This document shows, in pieces, positions 3,677 through 50,856 of a DNA stretch of 50,856 bases. The notes beneath the pieces are model-generated. The model ran no database searches and was not told the DNA's origin. It worked only from the letters and a program-made list of their open reading frames with translations. The stretch covers positions 1 to 50,856 of IMG/VR virus record IMGVR_UViG_3300028806_000015. One strand, 5' to 3'. Position 1 is the first letter of the stretch. Every line of letters starts with the position of its first letter. Source of the DNA: a virus. The translations under genes and the position numbers were made by a program.

Positions 3677-5599
3677 ATGGATGAAACATATCGTAAGCGT
3701 ATATTAGAGGCTTTGGCTCGTCAGGAATCTGTTAAAGCACCAGAAGGAGAATCTAAAGAAACGCATCCTACGGAATCTAGTGCATATAAGGATCGTATAA
3801 AAGCAATCTTAGCTCAAAAAGAAAAGACGCCTGAATTATCATTAGGTGAGAAAGCTTTAGATATATTATCAGGTATTGGGAGGGGGGCGTTGTCAGCAAT
3901 TCCTGCATCTGGCGCTCTTGATGTTGGGCGTTCTATTAATCCGGAACATTGGAAAAAGCAGAAAGAAGATGTTCAAGAAATCGATGAATATTTAAATGCG
4001 CCAGCTAAAACAACAGCGGGTCGAATTGGGCACAATGCTACCAATTGGGCAGTAGGAGCGGCTCCTTTTATGGGAGGAGCGTCTACATTAAGAGCGGCTG
4101 CAAAAGGGGTTGGAAAATCGGGTTCATTGGGCGCTCTTGCAGGGGCTTACAAAGAAACTGGAATGAACCCTGTTGTGGCTGATTTAATGGCTATGGCATC
4201 CCCTTATGCAATATCTAAGGCGCCTCAAGCAGTTTCGTCTGTGGGTAAGGGCATTGCATTTCCTTTTTCTAAAAAGGTTAGAGAAAAAGTTAGAACGGCT
4301 TCGGCGGAAAAACAACTAGCTTCTATTCTAGCATCAGAATTAGGAGAGAATCCGACAGCAGTTATTAACCTTCCTGAATATTTATCTAAGCTTCACGCAG
4401 GAGAAGATAAAGTAGATATTGGTAGAATTTTAAGGGGACGTACAAAAAGTGCTGTTGAAGAAGCCGAAAAGTTTAGAGAGCATAAAACTGCTCCTAAATT
4501 TAAAGAAGCAACATCATCTACAGAACCTTTCGCTATTAGTGAAACAGAAGAATTTTTGAAACAGGCTAAACATGAGAATATTGGAACTCGAGAAAGAACT
4601 TACAAGAGGAAGATTTCGGATATTGAAAATAAGAATTCTCATGAGAATTTGACTGTTGCAGATATGGAAAAAATTGCTCCAAATGCCACAAAAGAAGAGC
4701 AACAGAGTCTCTTAAACTTTATTGGTGAAAAGGGACTGGAATTGTTACCTATTCAAGCCCAAAAGAAGTTAGAGGCGCTTAATGATGAAATCGCAGCTGC
4801 TATTCATTCTAAGCAATTCTCTGAGGCTCGAGATTTAATGAAAGAAAAAGAAGCGCTTCTCAAAGATGTTAAAAATAATGCCCCTAAGTTAATTGAAGCT
4901 AGGAATGAATATGCTGAACTTTCGAAGCCAATAAGCGACATTACTGAGCATGATATTTTAGGTAAGTTTGTTTCAAAAAAGAAGAATGGGCAATATGAAT
5001 TAATGTTATCAGATATTCCTGATGTGGTTATGGATAAAGTTATTCAAACGCCAGAATATAGTTCTGATTTACTTAAGTTTGCATATGATAATTTATCTTC
5101 TGCTCAATTAACAAAACTTAGAAACTATATTGAAGGAAAGGTTGCTTTCATGATAAAGAACTCAGAGGGCAACATTAAGAAAGAAACTCTTCATAATTTT
5201 ATTCATGAAAATCCTGGTGCTTTTATTTTGAATCCTGGTTTAAAAAAGAAGTTAAGTAACATTTTCTCTGCTAATTCTTTTATTAATAAGATAGAGAAAA
5301 AATTTAGAACTAGTTCTTTCGATGATCTTCAAAAAGATTATCCTCTTAGTTTAATTGAAAGAATGTATCACAAATTTCCTCTTGTTGGCCCTATTTTTAA
5401 AAAAATTACAAAAATCAATCCTGTAGATAAAATGAACATAAGAGAGAAGGTTTTAAAGAATGTTGTTAATGACCCTGCTTATGCTCAAAAGATAAGACAG
5501 GCTGGAAATATTCCTCCTCTTTATGAAAGGATAACTCCTGGAACGTATTCTGCTTTACCTTCTCTATTAAAAAATATTGGCAGGAAGCCTTTAGGATGA
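3677..5599 (+). CDS. Putative large ejection protein
   Basis: 640 residues, last gene of the late transcript. Residues 60-210 are rich in Gly, Ala and hydrophobics (for example GIGRGALSAIPASGALDVG and NWAVGAAPFMGGASTLRAA) and could interact with membrane; residues 250-560 are charged and helical. This layout is like large ejection proteins such as P22 gp16, but there is no clear sequence match and no lytic transglycosylase motif that I can see. Its end overlaps the start of a convergent minus-strand operon by 9 bases. Confidence 0.5.
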   Translation: MDETYRKRILEALARQESVKAPEGESKETHPTESSAYKDRIKAILAQKEKTPELSLGEKALDILSGIGRGALSAIPASGALDVGRSINPEHWKKQKEDVQEIDEYLNAPAKTTAGRIGHNATNWAVGAAPFMGGASTLRAAAKGVGKSGSLGALAGAYKETGMNPVVADLMAMASPYAISKAPQAVSSVGKGIAFPFSKKVREKVRTASAEKQLASILASELGENPTAVINLPEYLSKLHAGEDKVDIGRILRGRTKSAVEEAEKFREHKTAPKFKEATSSTEPFAISETEEFLKQAKHENIGTRERTYKRKISDIENKNSHENLTVADMEKIAPNATKEEQQSLLNFIGEKGLELLPIQAQKKLEALNDEIAAAIHSKQFSEARDLMKEKEALLKDVKNNAPKLIEARNEYAELSKPISDITEHDILGKFVSKKKNGQYELMLSDIPDVVMDKVIQTPEYSSDLLKFAYDNLSSAQLTKLRNYIEGKVAFMIKNSEGNIKKETLHNFIHENPGAFILNPGLKKKLSNIFSANSFINKIEKKFRTSSFDDLQKDYPLSLIERMYHKFPLVGPIFKKITKINPVDKMNIREKVLKNVVNDPAYAQKIRQAGNIPPLYERITPGTYSALPSLLKNIGRKPLG

Positions 5600-9441: not shown

Positions 9442-11940
9442 ATGGGTCCAAAAGCACCAAGACTAACAGGAGACGTGAATCCATTTGGTGATTTTGGAAT
9501 AGACATTTATCGGATTGCTGAGGCATTGGGCAAGCCCCAGAAGAGTAAGGATGGATGGATGTGCTGCTGTCCAGCCCACGATGATAAGAACCCTAGCTTA
9601 TCCATTAGGATGCGAGATGGTCGCATTCTTTTGTATTGTTTTGCTGGCTGCAAGTTTACGGATATTATTTATGAGATACGTGAACGAGGATTGCTTGTTA
9701 CGGATTCCTGTAACACCCCTCCCAAATCGTGTTACGGAACTCCTAATTTTAGTTACAACTCTGTTACAAGAAAAAGAGACGACGGTGTTACGGCTACTGT
9801 TACAGGGTCTGTTACAGACTCTTCTTCTCTTGCTTTAAGAGATAATTATCATATTGAATCTAATGAAGAAAATATTTTATTAAAAAACTCTTTGCAAGAA
9901 GATATTTTTTCTGATACCCTCTTATCAAGTAACTCAGTTACTAATATATCAGTAGATAAGTTACTTAATAATACAGTAACTGATATATCTGTTACTGAAG
10001 TAACAAATATCTCTACTACTGATGTAACATATATTCCTACTACTGAAGTAACAGAAATCTCTACTATTTCAGTAACTAATATCCCTAAAAAGAATAACTT
10101 AGTAACAGAAATTACTAATATTAATGAAGTAACTTATATATCTAATATACCAGTAACTGATATTATTAATAGTAATATTACTATAGATTCATCAGATTTT
10201 AAGAAAAACTTAACTACTGTCCCTTATGCTCCAATAAAAAAACAAGTAGTAGAAGATAATTTATCTAAAGAATTATTCAAAAAAGATCAAGAAACATTAG
10301 ATAATATTAAATCTATTTGGGATTATGGTATTAATGTAACTGAAACTCTTGGTGAAATTTATTTAAATACACGAGGTATATTTATTGAAAATATTATAGA
10401 CAAGATAAATTCTTGTATAAGATTTAATAAATCTGTGTTTCATCCTTTTTTAAAGGAAAAAATGCCTTGTTTGCTTTCGAAGATAGTTGACAAAGAGAAT
10501 AATTTTGTAGGAATACAGAATATTTATCTTGATAATCAAGGCAATAGGATATCAAAGGATCAACGTAGTAAGATTACTCGTGGGAAGATCAAGGGGAACT
10601 ATTTTGCGATTGGTGAGTTTCAGGAGAGGATGATCATCTCTGAGGGTGTGGAGGATGCCGTTTTTTTGGCCACCAGATGCCCGGAACGGTCTGTCTTGGC
10701 ATCTCTGGGCACATCCACCTCTATTGCCCTTCCAGAGGTCGTAAAAGAGGTAATAATTGCAGCTGATGCTGATGTGGCTGGTAGGAAGCATGCTAGTCGC
10801 TTAAAGAGATATCTCCAAGATAGCGGAAAATCAGTAAATATAATCTATCCTCCTACATGTAAAGATTTTAATGATTATTACCTTGAAAAAGAAGATATAA
10901 AAATAAAGGAACAAAGAAACAATAAAATATTAGATTTAATAAATAATATTAGATTAGAAATATCTAATACATTTAGTATGTATACTGATTTTAATTTTAT
11001 TACAAAGAATCAAGTAGCAAATTCAGATTTTTTGATAGATTCGATACTTCCAAGAGTTGGTGTGTCAATCCTTCTTGGCCATCCCAAGATTGGGAAAAGT
11101 TGGATAGCTCAAGGCTGGATTACTGATATCCTTTTGGGTAAAAAAGTATTCGAAACTTTCGATACAAACAAAGTAGGGGTTTTATTTTATGCTTTAGAAG
11201 ATAATGCTTCTAGACTAAAGACAAGATTCTCTAAACTAAATCCAGCATTATACTTTGATGAAAATATGTTTGATGTTATTACTCATTGTTCTTCTCTTGA
11301 TCAAGGAGAACTCAACAGGTTGCGAGAATATTTAGAATCTCATCCTCATATTAGATTTATTGTTATAGATCCTTTTGAAAAGATTCGTCCTAATGGCACT
11401 ACAGGTAAGTCAGCTAATGCATATCAAACAGATTATCGAGATATAAGTTTATTGAAAGAAATAGCTGAAGAATTTGAGATATCTATTCTGCTAGTTCATC
11501 ATCTTAAGAAAGAAACAACTGGTGATTCTATTCGAGATGTTAATGGTTCTATTGGAATGACTGCTTCCGTTGATGCAATCTTTATGCTAACTAAAAAAGA
11601 TGAAATATATACCTTCGATAAGAAAGGAAAAGACATAGATGCAGAAACCTTCAGAATGGAATTCGATTACGAGTCTGGAAGATTTTTAATAGCAGAAGAT
11701 CTGCAAGAGGAAAAAGTGAATTTACAAAATAAGATTTTAGAATATATAAAATTATCTCAATCAATTGTTTCTAATGCTTGTTTGTATAGATCTTTGGGCA
11801 AGACTTCTGAAGCAGGTAAAGTTCAAGTTAGGAGAGCTCTAAAATATTTAACAGATAAAAAAGAAATTGATCGAGTAGATAATGGTGTTTATAAAATATC
11901 TGAGAACTCTGTAATAATTAATGATTGGTGGAATAATTAA
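9442..11940 (+). CDS. Primase-helicase (CHC2-like zinc finger, TOPRIM, RecA-like ATPase)
   Basis: 832 residues. Zinc-finger primase start: Cys41-43, His46, Cys66 and Cys70. A primase-type segment (WDYGINVTETLGEIYLNTRG) lies near 290-310. TOPRIM: Glu401 in ISEG and Asp442/Asp444 in AADAD. Helicase: Walker A GHPKIGKS at 546-553, Walker B IVID at 640-643 and LLVHHLKKE near 690, as in RepA/AAA_25 ATPases. It would unwind DNA and lay primers at the phage fork. Residues 85-285 form an unusual low-complexity linker with repeated VTxIS, encoded by the GTTAC/GTAAC array described separately. Clear RBS GGGAG. It heads an operon whose next gene overlaps its stop. Confidence 0.9.
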   Translation: MGPKAPRLTGDVNPFGDFGIDIYRIAEALGKPQKSKDGWMCCCPAHDDKNPSLSIRMRDGRILLYCFAGCKFTDIIYEIRERGLLVTDSCNTPPKSCYGTPNFSYNSVTRKRDDGVTATVTGSVTDSSSLALRDNYHIESNEENILLKNSLQEDIFSDTLLSSNSVTNISVDKLLNNTVTDISVTEVTNISTTDVTYIPTTEVTEISTISVTNIPKKNNLVTEITNINEVTYISNIPVTDIINSNITIDSSDFKKNLTTVPYAPIKKQVVEDNLSKELFKKDQETLDNIKSIWDYGINVTETLGEIYLNTRGIFIENIIDKINSCIRFNKSVFHPFLKEKMPCLLSKIVDKENNFVGIQNIYLDNQGNRISKDQRSKITRGKIKGNYFAIGEFQERMIISEGVEDAVFLATRCPERSVLASLGTSTSIALPEVVKEVIIAADADVAGRKHASRLKRYLQDSGKSVNIIYPPTCKDFNDYYLEKEDIKIKEQRNNKILDLINNIRLEISNTFSMYTDFNFITKNQVANSDFLIDSILPRVGVSILLGHPKIGKSWIAQGWITDILLGKKVFETFDTNKVGVLFYALEDNASRLKTRFSKLNPALYFDENMFDVITHCSSLDQGELNRLREYLESHPHIRFIVIDPFEKIRPNGTTGKSANAYQTDYRDISLLKEIAEEFEISILLVHHLKKETTGDSIRDVNGSIGMTASVDAIFMLTKKDEIYTFDKKGKDIDAETFRMEFDYESGRFLIAEDLQEEKVNLQNKILEYIKLSQSIVSNACLYRSLGKTSEAGKVQVRRALKYLTDKKEIDRVDNGVYKISENSVIINDWWNN
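9697..10157. repeat. Array of GTTAC/GTAAC pentamers
   Basis: Twenty copies of GTTAC or its complement GTAAC lie in 461 bases within the primase-helicase gene, with one more at 10336. About one would be expected by chance. The left part (9697-9815) has seven GTTAC and one GTAAC; from 10000 on all are GTAAC. Copies at 9976, 10000, 10024, 10048 and 10072 are exactly 24 bases apart. On the left the motif falls in different codon frames (GTT-AC, TGT-AAC, TGT-TAC, AGT-TAC), which argues for a DNA-level role such as iterons or priming sites. Confidence 0.75.
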
Positions 11941-17524: not shown

Positions 17525-17692
17525 AAACCGATTGTACTTTCCACAAACAAAAATTCAAACTGAATCCGGTTTAGCAGCAATCGCATCCGGTTTGTGAAAA
17601 ATTTAATCGGTTTTTCCCGCAAACCCGCAGAATGCCTTAAGCCAAAACCGATCGCGCTGCTTTCAAATAAAAATCAAAACCGCGTCCGGTTT
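17525..17692. repeat. Cluster of AAACCGAT / ATCCGGTTT repeats
   Basis: Related short motifs occur at 17525 (AAACCGAT), 17564 and 17585 (ATCCGGTTT), 17606 (ATCGGTTT), 17645 (AAACCGAT) and 17677-17692 (AAACCG then CCGGTTT, an inverted pair). The core AAACCG appears in both orientations seven times in 168 bases. The stretch 17404-17691 holds no gene I trust, and it is richer in G+C than its surroundings. It may be an operator array, an origin, or a dispersed palindromic element shared with the host. Confidence 0.65.
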
Positions 17693-20428: not shown

Positions 20429-20502
20429 TGGGGTGTCGTCTAAAGGTAGGACACCTGGCTTTGGACCAGTGAATATAGGTTCGATTCCTGTCGTCCCAAC
20501 CA
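20429..20502 (+). tRNA. tRNA-Gln (anticodon TTG)
   Basis: The 74 bases fold as a cloverleaf: acceptor TGGGGTG with CGTCCCA, D-arm GTCTAAAGGTAGGAC, anticodon arm CCTGG-CTTTGGA-CCAGT, T-arm ATAGG-TTCGATT-CCTGT, and an encoded CCA. The loop gives anticodon TTG, reading CAA. One pair (27-43, C and T) does not match. It starts directly after a stop codon. CAA-rich late genes (portal tail, ejection proteins) could benefit. Confidence 0.9.
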
Positions 20503-20509
20503 GATATAT

Positions 20510-20634
20510 AAGGACATAGCTTAGCGGTAAAGCAACTCGGAATAAGAATTGAGATATTGATTGGCGATGGTAGTAGCACTTATCAAGATTTTTAGGAGAG
20601 GAAGTCATGAGTTCAAATCTCATTGTCCCTACCA
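20510..20634 (+). pseudogene. tRNA-like element with about 49 extra bases
   Basis: The ends look like a tRNA: acceptor AAGGACA pairs with TGTCCCT (six of seven), the D-arm is GCTTAGCGGTAAAGC, the T-arm is ATGAG-TTCAAAT-CTCAT, and A-CCA follows. Between D-arm and T-arm there are about 50 bases more than in a normal tRNA, and no clean anticodon arm can be chosen. It may be an interrupted or degraded tRNA, or one with an intron or aberrant variable arm. Confidence 0.45.
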
Positions 20635-33182: not shown

Positions 33183-33526
33183 TTATTCTTTACGCAATTG
33201 AGCAGTTTTACTGGCTCCTCCTTTTTTTTTCCCATCGCTACATATCCTTCATGTCCTAATTGAGCAGCTTTAGCGGCTCCTCCTTTTCTTCCTATGGCTA
33301 CATATCCTTCATGTCCTAATTGAGCAGCTCTAGCGGCTCCTCCTTTTCTTCCTATGGCTACATATCCTTCGCGTCCTAATTGGGCGACTCTACTTGCTCC
33401 TCCTTTTTTCCCTAATTCCTTAACTCTTTCAGGCGACATCGCCGCAAATCCACGCTTCTGCTTTAGTACAGCCTGGTTGGGAGCCTCTGCATCCATTGAA
33501 ACTTCGTTTTCTGTCTTTATTGTCAT
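33179..33526 (-). CDS. KGG-repeat protein with apparent C-terminal frameshift
   Basis: 115 residues. After a 30-residue acidic start come MSPERVKELGKKGGASRVAQ and two or three units of about 20 residues with GYVAIGRKGGAA and AQLGHE. KGG motifs are typical of small stress-type proteins (YciG-like). In the last unit a run of nine A shifts the frame: the encoded end is GKKKEEPVKLLN, while one more base, or a -1 shift, would read GKKKGGASKTAQLRKE and then stop at 33183-33185. It is the only minus gene in the structural region. Confidence 0.65.
   Translation of the reverse strand: MTIKTENEVSMDAEAPNQAVLKQKRGFAAMSPERVKELGKKGGASRVAQLGREGYVAIGRKGGAARAAQLGHEGYVAIGRKGGAAKAAQLGHEGYVAMGKKKEEPVKLLNCVKNN
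33196..33435. repeat. 60-base tandem repeats in the KGG gene
   Basis: Sequence recurs at 60-base spacing, for example CCTAATTGAGCAGCT at 33256 and 33316 and CCTAATTGGGCGACT at 33376. The two central units differ at only a few bases; the outer ones have diverged. The unit is a multiple of three, so unit number can change without loss of frame. Confidence 0.8.
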
Positions 33527-38577: not shown

Positions 38578-40335
38578 ATGGCAATCACCACTCTACCGAC
38601 TGCTCAGCACCCAACTCATTTAGATAGGCTTGCCGTAGGTCCTTATGGAACGCCCGATGTTCCTAATACTATTTTGCAGCTGACATCAGATGATTCTGCC
38701 TTTCTGTTGCCGAATTTGACTACAGCGCAAGCAACAGCTGCGTTTTTGAATCTTGTATCTGATCCAACAGGTGCAACTACGCAAAATGCTGCTGCTGGTA
38801 TGGAAATATTTGTGACAGATGGAACTGGTGGATCGGGTGGATCCAATTTGTTCAATCATGGGCAGGGAGTCTATTACTGTTCTCAAACATCAGCAGGCCC
38901 TCCTCCTGTATTTACATGGACAAAGTTTGGAACTGGTGGTGTAGGATCTCTTCCAGGGCCTGGCGTCATCGTAACTGATGGTGCTGGAAACCCAAGCGCT
39001 ATTTCAATGTTGGTTACACCTGGAACAAATAATATCGGACTGGGTGTGGGATCTTTATCAGCGGTTACAACAGGAAGTAATAACGTTGGTTTTGGTTTTA
39101 ATGCATTACATACCATTACAACTCAATCGGCTAATATCGCAATCGGTGTTCTTGCTCAGCAAAATGCCACAGGTCAAGGAAACGTTGGAATTGGAGGAGG
39201 AACGCTTCTAGCTGTTAGTGGATCAAGCAATGTTTCCTTAGGAAATAGTTGTTTAACTCAAACCACTCTTGGAAGCTTTAATACAGCAGTTGGATTTCAG
39301 GCATTAAATGCTAACATCGGAATGGCTTTGCCAAGTGCTGTTGGATGGAACAATACAGCTATTGGGTCTAATGCAGGTTTAACGCAAAGTACTAACTCTA
39401 ATTGTACTTTTGTTGGATCTGGCTCAGATGCGATTTCACCAAACTTAACAAATGCAACCGCCATTGGTGCTTCTGCTACTGTTTCTACTTCTAATACACT
39501 GGTTTTGGGAAGTACAGGAGGAACAGGAACCAATGTTGTTGTTGGAAACACAACTAATGACTTTGCGAATCTAGCTATATTTTCTATCTTTTCTACAGTT
39601 AAGGGTTTCTTGCCCCCTCAGATGAGTCAGATGAATCGTACAACTATTAGCGCAATTCCAGGTAATGTGCCTGATGGTTTGCTTGTTTATGATATAACCA
39701 ATCATGCTCCTTATTATTGGAACGCAAATACGCTTGCTTGGGTTCCATGGGGAACTGGTGGAGGCTCTGGAACCGTGACGTCGGTTGGGACAGGAACCGG
39801 CTTGACAGGTGGTCCTATTACCACTAGTGGAACCATCTCTCTAGCTAATACAGCTGTTACTCCTGGCACCTATACTCTTGCCACTGTCACTGTAAACGCT
39901 CAGGGACAGATTACCTCGGCAAGTAATGGATCTGCTGGTTCTGGAACAGTAACCAGTGTTGGAAGTGGAACAGGATTGTCAGGAGGACCTATTACCTCTA
40001 GCGGAACGCTTTCAATTGCTAATACAACTGTAACGGCTGGAAGTTATACGAATGCCAATATCACGGTAAATGCTCAAGGTCAGCTTACAGCGGCAAGCAA
40101 TGGAAGTGGTGGAACAACTCCGACAACTGGTTCAGGAACCCTAACTGCTGGAACATTAACTGTTTCAGCAACTCAAGTAACTGCAAGTTCTAAGATATTT
40201 ACGACAAACACAACATTCGGAACAGGCGTTGTTGGCATTTTGAGTATTTCATCTCAAACTCCAGGAACAGGATTCGTTGTTACTTCGTCTTCTTCTACTG
40301 ATAATAGTTCTTTTGCATGGGTAATAATTGGTTAA
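38578..40335 (+). CDS. Fibre-like protein 1, beta-roll repeats
   Basis: 585 residues, the largest of six fibre paralogs. Residues about 150-325 carry YadA-head-like beta-roll units (NNVGFGFNALHTITTQSANI, NTAVGFQALNAN, ATAIGASATVSTSNTLVLG). A cap module near 340-390 reads FLPPQMSQMNRTTISAIPGN, then LLVYDITNHAPYYWNA. Two repeats of about 55 residues follow (GTGLTGGPITTSGTISLANT, then TVNAQGQITSASNG). It probably forms trimers reaching from the tail to the host surface. RBS AAAGGAG. Confidence 0.65.
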   Translation: MAITTLPTAQHPTHLDRLAVGPYGTPDVPNTILQLTSDDSAFLLPNLTTAQATAAFLNLVSDPTGATTQNAAAGMEIFVTDGTGGSGGSNLFNHGQGVYYCSQTSAGPPPVFTWTKFGTGGVGSLPGPGVIVTDGAGNPSAISMLVTPGTNNIGLGVGSLSAVTTGSNNVGFGFNALHTITTQSANIAIGVLAQQNATGQGNVGIGGGTLLAVSGSSNVSLGNSCLTQTTLGSFNTAVGFQALNANIGMALPSAVGWNNTAIGSNAGLTQSTNSNCTFVGSGSDAISPNLTNATAIGASATVSTSNTLVLGSTGGTGTNVVVGNTTNDFANLAIFSIFSTVKGFLPPQMSQMNRTTISAIPGNVPDGLLVYDITNHAPYYWNANTLAWVPWGTGGGSGTVTSVGTGTGLTGGPITTSGTISLANTAVTPGTYTLATVTVNAQGQITSASNGSAGSGTVTSVGSGTGLSGGPITSSGTLSIANTTVTAGSYTNANITVNAQGQLTAASNGSGGTTPTTGSGTLTAGTLTVSATQVTASSKIFTTNTTFGTGVVGILSISSQTPGTGFVVTSSSSTDNSSFAWVIIG

Positions 40336-40347
40336 AGGAAATAAATA

Positions 40348-41049
40348 ATGTCTGCATATTTAGTCACACAGTTAACTGCCACTCAAATCGCAGCGCTGAC
40401 TCCAACAAATGGAATGGTTATTTATAATACCACGACGAATCAATTCCAGTTCTATCAGAATGGAAGCTTTTTAATAGTTACGGGTGGAATTGTAACCTCA
40501 GTTGCAAGCGGAACTGGTTTGACGGGAGGACCTATTACTTCCAGTGGAACGCTTTCGATAGCCAATACAGCAGTAACACCAGGGAGTTACACCTATACGT
40601 CTTTAACGGTAAATGCGCAGGGCCAGATCACCGCTGCGAGCAATGGAACAGGACCAACTGGAACCGTGACGTCGGTTGCGACAGGAACGGGGCTTACTGG
40701 TGGTCCGATCACTACGAGTGGCACTATTTCTTTAGCAAACACAACAGTGACGCCTGGGACCTATAATCTTGCAACCGTGACAGTGAATGCTCAGGGGCAA
40801 GTGACTGCTGCCAGTAATGGCACTGCTTCAGGATTAACTTATGGTGTTGCAGGACCTTTAGTTGCTGGAACTCTGACGGTTAATACAGCAGATGTTCAAA
40901 CAACTTCATCATATTCAGTTACTTATCAAACTTTTGGAGGCATTCCGGGAGCTTTGAGTGTGAGTTCGTTCGTTGCGGGAACAAGTTTTACTGTTACTTC
41001 AACTTCAAATGCCGATACGAGTACGTTTTATTGGTCAGTTATTAATTAA
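40348..41049 (+). CDS. Fibre-like protein 2
   Basis: 233 residues. N-terminal cap module (QLTATQIAALTPTNGMVIYN, then NQFQFYQNGSF), two GTGLTGGPITSSGTLS-type repeats each ending in TVNAQGQxTAASNG, and a short beta-rich C-terminal domain (SYSVTYQTFGGIPGALSVSS) like the end of protein 1. No beta-roll part. It appears to be a short paralog sharing both ends with its neighbours. Confidence 0.65.
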   Translation: MSAYLVTQLTATQIAALTPTNGMVIYNTTTNQFQFYQNGSFLIVTGGIVTSVASGTGLTGGPITSSGTLSIANTAVTPGSYTYTSLTVNAQGQITAASNGTGPTGTVTSVATGTGLTGGPITTSGTISLANTTVTPGTYNLATVTVNAQGQVTAASNGTASGLTYGVAGPLVAGTLTVNTADVQTTSSYSVTYQTFGGIPGALSVSSFVAGTSFTVTSTSNADTSTFYWSVIN

Positions 41050-41060
41050 GAGGAACTTGA

Positions 41061-42347
41061 ATGTCGTCATATCAAGTAACACGGTTAACAAGTTCTCAGA
41101 TCAGTGGTTACACACCGACTAATGGTCAAATTGTGTACAATACAACGACTAATCAGTTTCAATTCTATCAAAATGGCTCGTGGGACATTATTACTGGTGG
41201 ATTTGTTACATCTGTTGCAACGGGGACTGGCTTGACGGGTGGACCTATAACGTCTACAGGAACAATCTCTATCGCAAATACTGCCGTTTCTGCTGGTTCT
41301 TATAATGTTTCCAATATCACGGTGAACGCACAAGGCCAGATTACGGCAGCAACAGGTTTATCAAGTGCTGGTGTGGTTGTAACGAATGGTTCTGGCGTTC
41401 CTAGTGCTGTTTCAAATTTGATAGATACAGGATCGGGGGGAAATCTTGGTCTTGGATTATTGATTTATCCATCAATTACAACAGGAACCAATAATATAGC
41501 GATAGGGTATCAATCGCAGAATGCAGTGACGACTGGAATTGCTAATACGTCTGTTGGATATCAAAGTTTAGTATTAAATGCGGCAGGGCAAGAAAATTGT
41601 GCTTTTGGAGCCGGAGCTTTAAAAAGCTTAAATGCTGCTGGAAGCAACAACAATGTAGCGGTTGGTTGGGAATCTGGATTTGCGATTACAACTACGAATA
41701 GCGCCAATAACACTTTTGTTGGGTCTCAATCTGGGGGGGCCAGAACATCCTATTCTAGCTGTACGTTAATCGGAGCTCTTGCGGATTGTACTTCTAATGG
41801 TTTGAATCATTCTGTTGCAATTGGCTCAGGTGTAACGGTTGGCGCCTCTAATTCGTGTGTAATTGGTCAGGCAAATTCTACAGGTTTTGTAACGGTTGGA
41901 CTTAATATTGTAACTCCTGTAGGGAATGGTCTTCACATAGGAAATGCGGGTGGGGCTAAAAATCCTGCCTTAGTTATTGATACGTCAACAAGTGCTCTCA
42001 CAACACCTGCAACAACCAATCAAATTCAGATTAATAGTTTCAATGGCACGCCCGCTTTAGCGGCCAACGTGAGTCAATATAGCGGAACTGTTGTTACGGC
42101 TCAGAATACGACTTCTGCTTCAGCAACATGCGGAACCGCTACTTTAAATGGGGCGACTGCTGTCGTTATCTCGACGACTTCTGTTCAAACCACTTCTTTA
42201 ATATTCGTTACTCGAAATGCTGGAACTGGAGCCCCGAATTCAGGGACTGCCGTTGGTGTTGGCAGCATTGTGGCGGGTACAAGTTTTTCTATAGTTTCTA
42301 GCATGTTAGACACAGCAACAGTTAATTGGTTAATTATAAACCCATAA
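41061..42347 (+). CDS. Fibre-like protein 3
   Basis: 428 residues: cap module, one GTGLTGGPITSTGTISIANT repeat, a beta-roll part near 135-275 (NNIAIGYQSQNAVTTGIANT, NNTFVGSQSGG, SVAIGSGVTVGASNSCVIG), then a different beta-rich end (AATTNQIQINSFNGTPALAA-like, residues about 310-428). The alternate C-terminus may bind a different receptor or carry a chaperone domain; this is inferred. Confidence 0.65.
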   Translation: MSSYQVTRLTSSQISGYTPTNGQIVYNTTTNQFQFYQNGSWDIITGGFVTSVATGTGLTGGPITSTGTISIANTAVSAGSYNVSNITVNAQGQITAATGLSSAGVVVTNGSGVPSAVSNLIDTGSGGNLGLGLLIYPSITTGTNNIAIGYQSQNAVTTGIANTSVGYQSLVLNAAGQENCAFGAGALKSLNAAGSNNNVAVGWESGFAITTTNSANNTFVGSQSGGARTSYSSCTLIGALADCTSNGLNHSVAIGSGVTVGASNSCVIGQANSTGFVTVGLNIVTPVGNGLHIGNAGGAKNPALVIDTSTSALTTPATTNQIQINSFNGTPALAANVSQYSGTVVTAQNTTSASATCGTATLNGATAVVISTTSVQTTSLIFVTRNAGTGAPNSGTAVGVGSIVAGTSFSIVSSMLDTATVNWLIINP

Positions 42348-42366
42348 GTACTAAGGAGTATTTAGA

Positions 42367-43800
42367 ATGTCATCTACTTTAACAACTCAGCTAACCTCTA
42401 CACAGATTTCTGCTATTACTCCTGTTAATGGAAGTATTATTTATAATACAACTTCTGGACAGTTTCAGCTCTATCAAGCAGGAAGTCCTCTTATTGTGAC
42501 TAATGGGATTGTATCGCAAATATTGACAGGGGCTGGCCTTAGTGGAGGCCCGATTACCTCTGCCGGGACCATTTCCTTAGCTAATACAGCAGTGACCCCA
42601 GGAAGTTATACTTTAGCTAATCTAACTGTTAACCCACAAGGTCAGATTACGGCAGCCAGCAATGGAAGTGCTGTTACAAGTGTCACGGCTGGAACCGGTT
42701 TGAATGTAGGAGCAGGACCCGGTGGAACAATTACGACCTCTGGCACGATTTCTCTAGCGAATACAGCCGTGACCGCTGGCAGCTACACTAACGCCAATAT
42801 TACGGTTAATGCACAGGGCCAGATCACAGTTGCTTCTAATGGTTCTTCTAGTGGTGGTGTTACAAGTGTCACGGCTGGAACTGGTTTGAATGTAGGAGCA
42901 GGGCCCGGCGGAACAATTACGACCTCTGGCACGATTTCTATGGCCAATACAGCTGTAACTGCGGGGTCTTATACGTCTGCCAACATTACAGTAAATGCTC
43001 AAGGTCAAGTTACCGCTGCGAGCAATGGAACTGCTATTGTCCTGCCAGGCCCCGGTGTCATTGTGACCAATTCTGGAGGTACTCCCAGTGCTGTTAACGT
43101 GAATTTAACTGATGTCAATGGTTCCTTAGCATTAGGAAATAATGCAGGAAATCCAGGTGGGGGCGCTTCATTTAATACCTTTATAGGAGATTCTGTTGGA
43201 ATTTCAGCGACCGGAAATCAAAATACTGGACTTGGATTTCAAGCTTTACATTCCTTAACTTCAGGAACTAATAACGTTGCAGGTGGTTATCAGTGTTTAA
43301 GTACAATTACTACTAACACAGGTAATACTGGATTTGGAGCGTTGGCTTTAACAGCTCTTCAGGGGGGATCTAACAATAATAATACGGCTTTTGGTTTGAA
43401 TGCTTTAAGTACTCTTCAAACAGGAAGTGGAAACATAGGGTTTGGTGTTAATGCAAGCGTAGGTACCACTGCAACCAATTGTATAGCCATTGGTTCTAAT
43501 GCTTCTGTTTCAAGTGGCCTGACAAATGCATCTGCAATTGGGACAAGTGCATCAGTTACTACCAGTAATACGATGGTTTTAGGGGCCATTCCGACATATG
43601 TTGTGATCGGTGCAACTACCAATGATGCTAATAATACGGCTGTTTTGTCAGTCTTTTCAACGACGCAAGGATTTTTGCCTCCCTCGATGACAACCACCCA
43701 GAAGAATGCGATAGCATCCCCTGTGGCTGGATTAATGGTTTATGACAATACTTTAAATGCTATCAGTTATTTCAATGGTACAAGTTGGATATCAGTGTAA
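42367..43800 (+). CDS. Fibre-like protein 4
   Basis: 477 residues: cap module at 1-45, three glycine-rich repeats (two of them, with TAGTGLNVGAGPGGTITTSG, are recent internal duplicates at 42674 and 42857), a beta-roll region at about 255-405, and a C-terminal cap module (FLPPSMTTTQKNAIASPVAG, LMVYDNTLNAISYFNGTSW). A 95-base stretch at 42499-42593 is identical to part of the next fibre gene. Confidence 0.68.
   Translation: MSSTLTTQLTSTQISAITPVNGSIIYNTTSGQFQLYQAGSPLIVTNGIVSQILTGAGLSGGPITSAGTISLANTAVTPGSYTLANLTVNPQGQITAASNGSAVTSVTAGTGLNVGAGPGGTITTSGTISLANTAVTAGSYTNANITVNAQGQITVASNGSSSGGVTSVTAGTGLNVGAGPGGTITTSGTISMANTAVTAGSYTSANITVNAQGQVTAASNGTAIVLPGPGVIVTNSGGTPSAVNVNLTDVNGSLALGNNAGNPGGGASFNTFIGDSVGISATGNQNTGLGFQALHSLTSGTNNVAGGYQCLSTITTNTGNTGFGALALTALQGGSNNNNTAFGLNALSTLQTGSGNIGFGVNASVGTTATNCIAIGSNASVSSGLTNASAIGTSASVTTSNTMVLGAIPTYVVIGATTNDANNTAVLSVFSTTQGFLPPSMTTTQKNAIASPVAGLMVYDNTLNAISYFNGTSWISV
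42499..42593. repeat. 95-base exact repeat, copy 1
   Basis: Identical to 43988-44082 in the next fibre gene. The flanks are much less alike, so the identity looks like recent recombination or gene conversion between paralogs. Confidence 0.85.
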
Positions 43801-43855
43801 TGAATATTTATTATTTAAGTAATAATACATCTTTTTATTAAATGGAGTTATTCTA

Positions 43856-45292
43856 ATGTCCTCTTCCTTAACCACACAATTGACATCTACACAGATTTCA
43901 GCTTTAAGTGCTTCTGATGGATTGATTGTTTATAATTCGACGACGAATCAATTCCAATTTAGGCAGCAGGGAAGTTGGCTGACAATAACTAATGGGATTG
44001 TATCGCAAATATTGACAGGGGCTGGCCTTAGTGGAGGCCCGATTACCTCTGCCGGGACCATTTCCTTAGCTAATACAGCAGTAACACCAGGGAGTTACAC
44101 CTATACGTCTTTAACGGTGAATGCGCAGGGCCAGATCACCAGTGCTTCTAATGGATCTTTTTCTAATGTGACCAATATCGCAACAGGAACCGGTTTGATA
44201 GGTGGTCCTATTACATCTACAGGCGCTATTTCTCTTGCAAATACAGCAGTAACACCAGGAAGCTATACATCTGTAAGCTTGACGGTAGATTCTCAAGGAC
44301 GCGTTGCTGCTGCTAGTAATGGAAGTGGGGGGGGAGTTACTGAAGTTTTTACGGGGACTAACTTAAGTGGTGGTCCAATCACTTCAACGGGTACTATTTT
44401 TATTTCTCCTAGTGGCGTAACTGCGGGCACTTATGCGGTTGCGGATATTACAGTAAATGCCCAAGGACTCATTACAGCTATTTCTCGAAATTTGCCTGGG
44501 CCGGGCGTTATTACAACAAATTCTGTTGGCACTTCAAGTGCTGTTTCCAATTTGGCTTACGGCTCAAGTTCAGCTCTTTTTCTAGGTCTTAACGCCGGTA
44601 CGAATGGAAGCAGTTTAACTGATATGATTGCTATTGGAGATAATGCGTTAACAGATGATGGTGGTGCATCCGCTGGCGTGATTTTTGGGTACAATTCTTC
44701 ACATACTAGTAATCAATCAGGTATTGTTGGTTCCAATTATTCTATGTTTGGAGACAACAATTTGCCCCTGTGTCCATGCAGCTTTGGTTGTACTACATTA
44801 GGTTCAAATATTCTTCCTAATTTTACTGGACCTTCTCTAGCAGATCAGTTTGTTGTTCTTGGCCACAATGCTATGCTTAGTACAACTACTAATGGTACCA
44901 ACTCTCTATTTCATGCTATTGGTACAAACATAACCATAAATACTGCAGGTAGTAATACCTTGTATCCAACTTTAATTGGAACTCAAGCATCTTGTTCAGC
45001 TAACATTACTAATGCTTATGCTATTGGCGCATTTGCATCAGTTACTGTGGGCAATAGAATAGTTCTAGGTGGCACTGGCGCCAATGCAATCTCTGTTGTA
45101 ATTGGTGCTACAGCAAGCACACCTTCTGCTGTTTTGTCTATTGCATCTACCACACAGGGCTTTTTACCTCCTTCCATGACAACCACCCAGAAGAATGCCA
45201 TCAGCAGTCCAGCTCCTGGGTTGATTGTTTATGACAACACTCTAAATAAGCCCTATTTTTACAACGGAAGTTCTTGGGTTCAGTTTACATAA
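43856..45292 (+). CDS. Fibre-like protein 5, mosaic
   Basis: 478 residues: cap module, three glycine-rich repeats, a diverged middle with LTDMIAIGDNALTDDGGASA and a Cys-containing NNLPLCPCSFGCTTLGSN segment, a final beta-roll unit, and a C-terminal cap module (FLPPSMTTTQKNAISSPAPG). The first repeat is identical in DNA to protein 4 (43988-44082) and directly continues into a stretch nearly identical to protein 2 (40567-40631), so the gene is a patchwork. The extra Cys residues are unusual for this set. Confidence 0.68.
   Translation: MSSSLTTQLTSTQISALSASDGLIVYNSTTNQFQFRQQGSWLTITNGIVSQILTGAGLSGGPITSAGTISLANTAVTPGSYTYTSLTVNAQGQITSASNGSFSNVTNIATGTGLIGGPITSTGAISLANTAVTPGSYTSVSLTVDSQGRVAAASNGSGGGVTEVFTGTNLSGGPITSTGTIFISPSGVTAGTYAVADITVNAQGLITAISRNLPGPGVITTNSVGTSSAVSNLAYGSSSALFLGLNAGTNGSSLTDMIAIGDNALTDDGGASAGVIFGYNSSHTSNQSGIVGSNYSMFGDNNLPLCPCSFGCTTLGSNILPNFTGPSLADQFVVLGHNAMLSTTTNGTNSLFHAIGTNITINTAGSNTLYPTLIGTQASCSANITNAYAIGAFASVTVGNRIVLGGTGANAISVVIGATASTPSAVLSIASTTQGFLPPSMTTTQKNAISSPAPGLIVYDNTLNKPYFYNGSSWVQFT
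43988..44082. repeat. 95-base exact repeat, copy 2
   Basis: Exact copy of 42499-42593. It is followed, through 44140, by sequence that matches 40573-40631 of fibre gene 2 with about one difference. Confidence 0.85.
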
Positions 45293-49652: not shown

Positions 49653-50856
49653 ATGACTACACGTCTTGATCGATATGGAATGCCATCTTATGAAGATCCT
49701 GAAGGCATGGAATTGCCTCCAGAGTTTAGACATGTACGTCAACCCGTCATGCGAGTTAGGCGATCTCCTCCTACTAGAGATGTGTGGGATATGGGTCATA
49801 GAGAAATCTATGGCAATCCATGGGATGTCTATGAACCCAACGAAAGTCCGTATTTTTCTAATATAAATCCTTTCACATATTGGGTTCCTCCTTCAGGCGA
49901 AGCACCGCCAGGAAGAAGATTATTTGGGCACGGTGTTCCTGCAGCCCTCCCAGTTCCTCCTTCAGGCGAAGCACCGCCAGTATTTGGCATGTTAACGTCC
50001 CTACCTGCGGCAGCCGCCATGGCAAGAGAGTCACATGCTTCTGGGGCTCATCCTAGACGAGAAGATCCGTATTCTTTGGTTTATGGGGAACCTCTTCGTC
50101 GCGTCTTAACTGGCCAGGTTCCTCGTTTGGATGTGGAAGGACATCCTGCTTTTGAAGAAGAACATGTTAGTCCAAGACGAGGTGCTTCTCCCCTCCCTCC
50201 TACAGTTCTTCGCACTTCAGGTGAAGCAGCACCAGGAAGAAGATTATTTGGGCCAGGCGAAGCACCGCCAGGAAGAAGATTATTTGGGCCAGGCGAAGCA
50301 CCGCCAGGAAGAAGATTATTTGGGCACGGTGTTCCTGCAGCCCTCCCAGTTCCTCCTTCAGTCGAAGCACCGCCAGGAAGAAGATTATTTGGGCCAGGCG
50401 AAGCACCGCCAGGAAGAAGATTATTTGGGCCAGGCGAAGCACCGCCAGGAAGAAGATTATTTGGGCACGGTGTTCCTGCAGCCCTACCTGCGGGAGCTAC
50501 AGGATCGTCTGCGGCCCCTGCTGCTGAAATGGGCGAAAGGGGAATACATCAGGCATTAGATCCGTTATTAGATCTGGAACTAATCAGACAAATCGAACTT
50601 ATAGGTGGAGCAGAAGGAATAAGAAGACACGAGCAGGAACTACGTGTGCATGGTATGACGGATGAACAATTCCAAGAAATGCTGAGAGTTGCAAATGCGC
50701 TAGAACCTAGACGTAGGGCAAGAGGAGGTCCCATCAATATGAAAAAACAGGCAAAAAGATTGCAAAGTTTAGGGCGCCATGGAGATACAATCCTGGCTCA
50801 TATCAATCCTATTGAAGCTATGATGTTGAAGAGAATGGGTGGAAGTGGAACTATTA
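49653..50856 (+). CDS. Junction-spanning virion protein, N-terminal part
   Basis: The frame opens at an ATG (49653) and stays open to the end of the window; across the circle join it continues to the stop at 1576, about 878 residues in all. These 401 codons include 39 that are repeated at the window start. The part has an Arg/Pro-rich start (RHVRQPVMRVRRSPP), then repeats of GEAPPGRRLFGP, then a helical stretch (LDLELIRQIELIGGAEGIRR) before ARGGPINMKKQAKRLQ. Because of the join, neither half alone shows the whole gene. Likely an internal or tail-tip protein. Confidence 0.75.
   Translation, partial: MTTRLDRYGMPSYEDPEGMELPPEFRHVRQPVMRVRRSPPTRDVWDMGHREIYGNPWDVYEPNESPYFSNINPFTYWVPPSGEAPPGRRLFGHGVPAALPVPPSGEAPPVFGMLTSLPAAAAMARESHASGAHPRREDPYSLVYGEPLRRVLTGQVPRLDVEGHPAFEEEHVSPRRGASPLPPTVLRTSGEAAPGRRLFGPGEAPPGRRLFGPGEAPPGRRLFGHGVPAALPVPPSVEAPPGRRLFGPGEAPPGRRLFGPGEAPPGRRLFGHGVPAALPAGATGSSAAPAAEMGERGIHQALDPLLDLELIRQIELIGGAEGIRRHEQELRVHGMTDEQFQEMLRVANALEPRRRARGGPINMKKQAKRLQSLGRHGDTILAHINPIEAMMLKRMGGSGTI
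49896..50467. repeat. 36-base tandem repeats coding GEAPPGRRLFGP
   Basis: The unit GGCGAAGCACCGCCAGGAAG plus AAGATTATTTGGG and CCA occurs at 49896, 50220, 50256, 50292, 50361, 50397 and 50433, with a partial copy at 49965. From 50220 they form two blocks of three units, separated by a spacer coding HGVPAALPVPPS. Near-identity of the units points to recent expansion; an assembler may have collapsed or mis-counted them. Confidence 0.9.
50714..50856. repeat. Terminal redundancy, right copy
   Basis: Matches positions 1-143 with one difference at 50730. The final 126 bases are exact. Indicates the ends overlap and the genome closes into a circle. Confidence 0.9.

Follow-up and report, generated by a model that had tools for sequence, protein, structure and literature searches.

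In lambda, the origin iterons lie within the gene of the initiator, and the lambda O protein carries neither a primase nor a helicase. In RSF1010, an iteron-driven replicon with the helicase RepA, the work is divided among separate proteins, RepC binding the iterons and RepB priming, while P4 alpha unites primase, helicase and an origin-binding C-terminal winged helix in one protein whose iterons lie outside the gene. The helicases Rep of SaPI elements and Cch2 of SCCmec use a C-terminal domain to bind iterons that immediately follow their own gene, those of Cch2 being as short as 5 nt (PMC7581432). The pRN1 protein ORF904 joins a prim-pol, an SF3 helicase and a winged helix, and the DNA essential to its origin follows right after the gene as a stem-loop without iterons (PMC4234260). 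The repA gene of PY54 alone constitutes a circular minimal replicon, according to the title of Ziegelin 2005, which is cited in PMC10612081. Here we describe a locus that unites features of these systems in a single reading frame of an uncultured virus. The DNA analysed, hereafter the window, is an entire IMG/VR virus record of 50,856 nucleotides, and its 832-aa primase-helicase gene contains a dense array of the pentamer GTWAC (Table 1). We consider it likely that this array is an iteron array and, most probably, the replication origin of the phage, placed inside the coding sequence of its own initiator and bound by the winged helix of that initiator.

Table 1. Features of the primase-helicase locus and of the AAACCG cluster (window coordinates).
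Feature	Position	Strand	Remarks
832-aa gene	9442..11940	+	Zn ribbon, linker with array, DUF7146 + Toprim primase, AAA_25 helicase, C-terminal winged helix
Zn ribbon (CHC2-like), residues 21-71	9502..9654	+	Pfam Zn_ribbon_DnaG E=3.7e-5, slightly under the curated cut-off
Left block	9697..9815		8 GTWAC, 7 of them GTTAC; spacing 11-24 b; frames 0 and 1
AT-rich stretch	9816..10500		23-25% GC; holds the right block and continues past it
Right block	9929..10157		12 GTWAC, mostly GTAAC; many 24 b apart; frames 0, 1 and 2
DUF7146 + Toprim, residues 287-482	10300..10887	+	
Isolated 21st GTWAC copy	10336..10340	+	
AAA_25 / RepA-DnaB-type helicase core	10987..11517	+	Pfam AAA_25 1.4e-20
C-terminal winged helix (wHTH), candidate GTWAC reader	11695..11898	+	Profile, AlphaFold, Foldseek
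Predicted recognition helix EAGKVQVRRALKYLTD	about 11809-11856	+	
AAACCG/CGGTTT cluster	17525-17692 (168 b)	both	7 copies; extended AAACCGAT / TCCGGTTT; gap between divergent gene groups

The helicase of this protein belongs to the RepA (RSF1010)/DnaB-like AAA_25 family and has a RecA fold. A profile built from 30 sequences over helicase and tail matches RSF1010 RepA (1g8y, E=1.8e-11) together with winged-helix chains, DnaB structures are the top Foldseek matches of the AlphaFold model of the core (pLDDT 88), and the Walker A motif GxPKxGKS is conserved. Behind this core a C-terminal winged helix is predicted, on the strength of a moderate sequence match and a confident structure prediction. 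Against a wHTH profile made from relatives with the window excluded, the window tail reaches 16.7 bits, more than any of 200 shuffles, and the corresponding hhalign run gives a weaker match (probability 45, E=2e-4). AlphaFold models the tail as H-H-H-E-E with a pLDDT above 90, and its Foldseek matches are winged helices.

This architecture resembles each of the described systems in part. It shares with SaPI Rep and Cch2 a helicase with a C-terminal DNA-binding domain, short iterons (in related loci right behind the helicase gene) and residence on a mobile element. Theirs, however, is an AAA+ (non-RecA) helicase rather than the RecA-fold RepA/DnaB type found here, so that the likeness is one of working principle and not of membership, and the window array differs further in being part of the reading frame of a fused primase gene, where it precedes the helicase domain. 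With lambda O and the repA genes of PY54 and N15 the locus is likened by layout, the origin lying in the initiator gene; the lambda iteron sequence is unrelated, and no lambda O-type initiator domain occurs among the Pfam or PHROGs matches of the window protein. RSF1010 offers a related helicase core in an iteron-driven replicon, but here the helicase carries both the wHTH and the primase in the same chain. P4 alpha has the same fusion of primase, helicase and wHTH, with iterons, built from other types of primase and helicase, and pRN1 ORF904 has a comparable fusion with an origin that lacks iterons. The window system thus works like the known ones and is a member of none, having a RepA/DnaB helicase and an array within the frame of a fused Toprim primase. 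Our search of open PMC full text, which leaves subscription journals mostly beyond reach, returned no paper describing a class of AAA_25 helicase, wHTH and iterons, and none on GTTAC/GTAAC repeats with primases.

The array occupies the linker between the Zn ribbon and the Toprim domain. The initial annotation had counted 21 GTWAC pentamers in about 640 bases, 20 of them in 461, where about one is expected, and our recount agrees, with 21 copies at 9697-10340, 20 of these at 9697-10157 (461 b), and 0.94 expected from the window average; the 21st copy probably lies outside the array proper. No other 5- or 6-mer of the window is clustered as strongly as GTAAC/GTTAC. Across the window GTWAC occurs 104 times against 54.5 expected from shuffling, and the raised density at 38.5-45 kb (38578-45292) reflects ordinary Val-Thr dipeptides of the local genes, nearly all in frame. 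The change of strand that had been placed near 9950 holds, with GTTAC in 9 of 11 copies up to 9960 and GTAAC in 8 of the 9 copies at 9976-10153; the claim that every right-hand copy is GTAAC fails at one exception (9991). Divided into halves, the array has eight GTTAC among its first ten copies and eight GTAAC among its last ten. The exact spacing of 24 bases, reported for five copies, was found six times, and a tandem repeat with a 24-b unit is detected at 9975-10082. Three codon frames are used across the array as a whole, with 15 of the 20 copies in frame 0 (VT), four in frame 1 (encoding CN, CY, SY and SN) and one, at 9960, in frame 2 (KL); the left block proper, to which all three had been assigned, uses two. 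The AT-rich stretch that holds the right block and runs on behind it is a possible unwinding element, though not the most AT-rich part of the window.

Were the array a repeat at the protein level, that is, a VTxI or Ser/Thr-rich low-complexity spacer that grew by 12- and 24-base duplications and in which GTWAC merely spells Val-Thr in an AT-rich gene, the predominance of in-frame VT and the 24-b tandem repeat would be natural consequences, and the right block can partly be read in this way. A scan of IMG/VR for three TGTTAC at 12-b spacing, rejected as unspecific, also yielded chiefly VTG repeats from large proteins of repetitive sequence, probably tail fibres, along with HTH/small-terminase-like genes. 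Against this explanation, simulations with the protein held fixed and the codon usage of the phage predict 12.1 copies where 20 are seen, with 0 of 20,000 trials reaching 20, and only 0.53 out-of-frame copies where five are seen. Of the ten right-hand in-frame copies, eight spell valine as GTA, a codon that makes up only 23% of Val codons in the phage (P=2e-4). Moreover, the same GTWAC core forms intergenic arrays beside the helicase genes of relatives, as in L266, where 17 copies in blocks of alternating orientation follow right after the helicase stop, in L273, with 12 copies between genes and one at the ORF end, and in L312 (Rhodospirillaceae), where five GTAAC and then four GTTAC are packed into the 90 b that follow the stop. 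In L241, 13 copies in the coding tail occupy all three frames, and smaller GTWAC arrays are present in L319 (Acidobacteria), L321 (Microvirga) and L340 (Phenylobacterium). Because of the excess at fixed protein, the out-of-frame copies and the intergenic versions in L266, L273 and L312, the repeats appear to be kept at the DNA level and are more than a by-product of a protein repeat, in line with the selection on DNA first proposed; a purely protein-level origin of the array is improbable.

Our survey of other loci revealed what such arrays accompany. Dense short-word arrays were scored in the 700 b following the AAA_25 domain, with other windows of the same loci as controls. Among 79 viral AAA_25 loci from IMG/VR the score exceeded 4 in 40, compared with 9 of 536 control windows, and among 80 AAA_25 loci from named bacterial genomes (GTDB) it exceeded 5 in 15, compared with 5 of 555. 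Once redundancy was removed, scores above 5 were reached at 36 of 97 AAA_25 loci, compared with only 4 of the 676 control windows (windows of the same locus not being fully independent; Fisher P=3e-31). By this score about 60% of AAA_25 loci are without a strong array, and the helicase relatives in Gordonia and Microbacterium phages have none in the tested window. At 80 viral loci chosen by their Zn ribbon we found no comparable arrays, with the exception of one weak downstream cluster (L173), and a link between array and primase was dropped for this reason. The array associates with the helicase and the wHTH, not with the primase.

The arrays of these elements have a characteristic position and polarity. 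Their median start is 227 b past the helicase domain (quartiles 200-255), directly behind the wHTH, and the 52 arrays divide into 20 within the ORF, 17 across its stop and 15 past it. Copies occur on both strands in 52 of 52 arrays scored above 5. In the 44 arrays with at least six copies we counted 108 strand switches against 177 after shuffling, a value as low being reached in 0 of 2,000 shuffles (some of these loci are near-duplicates). The strand change of the window array is typical of this AAA_25 array class, and such a block-wise change would fit the loading of two opposed helicases. The original view of an iteron-like, strand-switching array, as expected for a possibly bidirectional origin, is thus matched by like block arrays in or directly after the AAA_25 helicase genes of many elements. 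In placement the window differs from its relatives, with no array in the 700 b behind the helicase and one in the same gene, 5' of Toprim, instead. Among 159 loci, only L333 and L335, both from Pseudonocardia, have a convincing array on the upstream side of this domain; by analogy, the window array may act from its upstream position as the arrays of relatives would act from behind the helicase. In L333 (Pseudonocardia autotrophica), GGGACA/TGTCCC arrays of opposite orientation flank the helicase domain on both sides, at 4309-4417 and 5346-5432.

Each element has its own iteron word, including GGTGACA, GGTTGCA, GATAACC, CGTTAC, AAGGTTAG, AAAGTTA, GCTAACA, GATAAGA, GCGCATCA and others, and GTAAC is one of the three commonest pentamers in 42 non-redundant words. 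Where recognition helices have a similarity of at least 0.6, iteron similarity averages 0.65 against 0.376 under permutation (P<0.0002; 43 non-redundant elements; a threshold set after the Mantel result and the table had been seen), whereas pairs matched on helicase similarity with lower helix similarity give 0.395. Helix VKQLLFKM pairs with GATAACC twice (L229 and L244), and VRFLL/IRYLL pairs with GCTAACA three times (L245, L364 and L373). A full Mantel test on every pair of elements shows a weak correlation between recognition helix and iteron (r=0.08, P=0.06). The window helix VRRALKYL has weak similarity to the helices of other GTWAC elements (-0.03 to 0.24) and shares with these proteins a basic residue after V/T. 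Such covariation supports, short of proof, the idea that each wHTH may read its own array.

The preferred mechanism is one in which the C-terminal winged helix of the primase-helicase would recognise GTWAC, and the copies, arranged in two mostly opposed blocks by an AT-rich stretch, would recruit several molecules of the protein. The recruited protein could then load RepA/DnaB-type hexamers, and the fused Toprim/Zn-ribbon primase may help to start replication, perhaps bidirectionally. Weighing against the origin reading are the position of the array 5' of Toprim and helicase, the weak likeness of the window helix to those of other GTWAC elements, the weak Mantel correlation, the many AAA_25 loci without a strong array, the 24-b coding repeat and the AAACCG cluster as a competitor. 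More broadly, we see an even chance that the locus represents a class of self-addressed replicons among phages, integrated elements and plasmids, in which a RepA/DnaB-type helicase carries a wHTH whose recognition helix co-evolves with a private iteron word in or after its own gene, here with everything, the primase included, in one reading frame.

The GTWAC copies might instead be a regulatory binding array, used in autoregulation, copy control or partition by the same or another phage protein, with the origin elsewhere, for example at AAACCG/CGGTTT. Binding-site arrays can indeed serve control, and the AAACCG cluster, which could be a rival origin or an operator cluster, sits where cumulative GC skew reaches its deepest local minimum. 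The skew check proposed with the initial annotation makes no choice between 10 kb and 17.6 kb, as skew here tracks gene direction. The AAACCG cluster scores 4.3, where about 1.6% of control windows exceed 4, and the arrays of relatives stay with the helicase-wHTH gene, which makes a regulatory array with a distant origin an unlikely account. Zn ribbons help to read trinucleotides in primases of the DnaG/T7 type. A primase-recognition cluster, also proposed initially after the GTT of T4 primase and making GTTAC/GTAAC primer start sites on the template for the Zn-ribbon/Toprim primase, is very improbable, for although the array adjoins the Zn ribbon and the SCCmec primase CCPol-MP favours initiation within iterons (PMC7581432), the 80 Zn-ribbon loci lack comparable arrays, several array-bearing AAA_25-wHTH helicases (L312, L337, L251 and L241) lack a Pfam primase domain within the same ORF, and the words of relatives are 6-8-mers that vary with the wHTH.

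By terminase and portal, relatives of the phage include Roseobacter phages CRP-901/902, Pelagibacter phages HTVC023P/027P and phage DSL-LC04. Searches of IMG/VR with the whole protein and with single domains returned one related contig only (L001), identical in DNA across the array, and no diverged relative. Elsewhere in the window, a second tRNA family match of 122 b (20510-20631), without an ARAGORN call, directly follows tRNA-Gln (20429-20502) and is perhaps a tRNA with an insert; a 60-b tandem repeat lies at 33196-33411 and a coding 36/141-b tandem repeat at the record end (50218-50466). In other contigs, GTTAC/GTAAC arrays with the frame GNKQGNKxGNK occur in a gene with an HTH at its start and a likeness to small terminase subunits (L021, L023, L056, L059 and L064), and these are possibly packaging sites. 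GTTAC arrays without a credible long gene, with frames reading CYILCY or LPCMLPCM, were seen in L031 (8247-8495), L044 (108-254), L066 (1510-1686) and L076 (906-1169).

Plasmid pATHE01 of Caldicellulosiruptor bescii (L374) offers a convenient system in which to test for an intragenic origin. This 8.3 kb plasmid, which we take to be the native C. bescii plasmid pBAL (PMC3643907) as the sizes agree, has seven annotated genes, one of which encodes an AAA_25-wHTH protein. The tail of this replication gene contains an array at 1738-1910 with 11 copies of TTCACTC/GAGTGAA in frame (IHSIHSIHS); the early copies share one strand and most of the later ones are on the opposite strand.

If the reading of the GTWAC array as an origin addressed by its own helicase is right, then, for many uncultured phages, integrated elements and plasmids that encode AAA_25-wHTH helicases, the origin would become readable from sequence. 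Recognition helices and their DNA words, naturally paired in dozens of elements, would then form a data set for a specificity code of winged helices. In the phage described here, a single reading frame would serve as both enzyme and origin, with codon choice in the service of DNA recognition.
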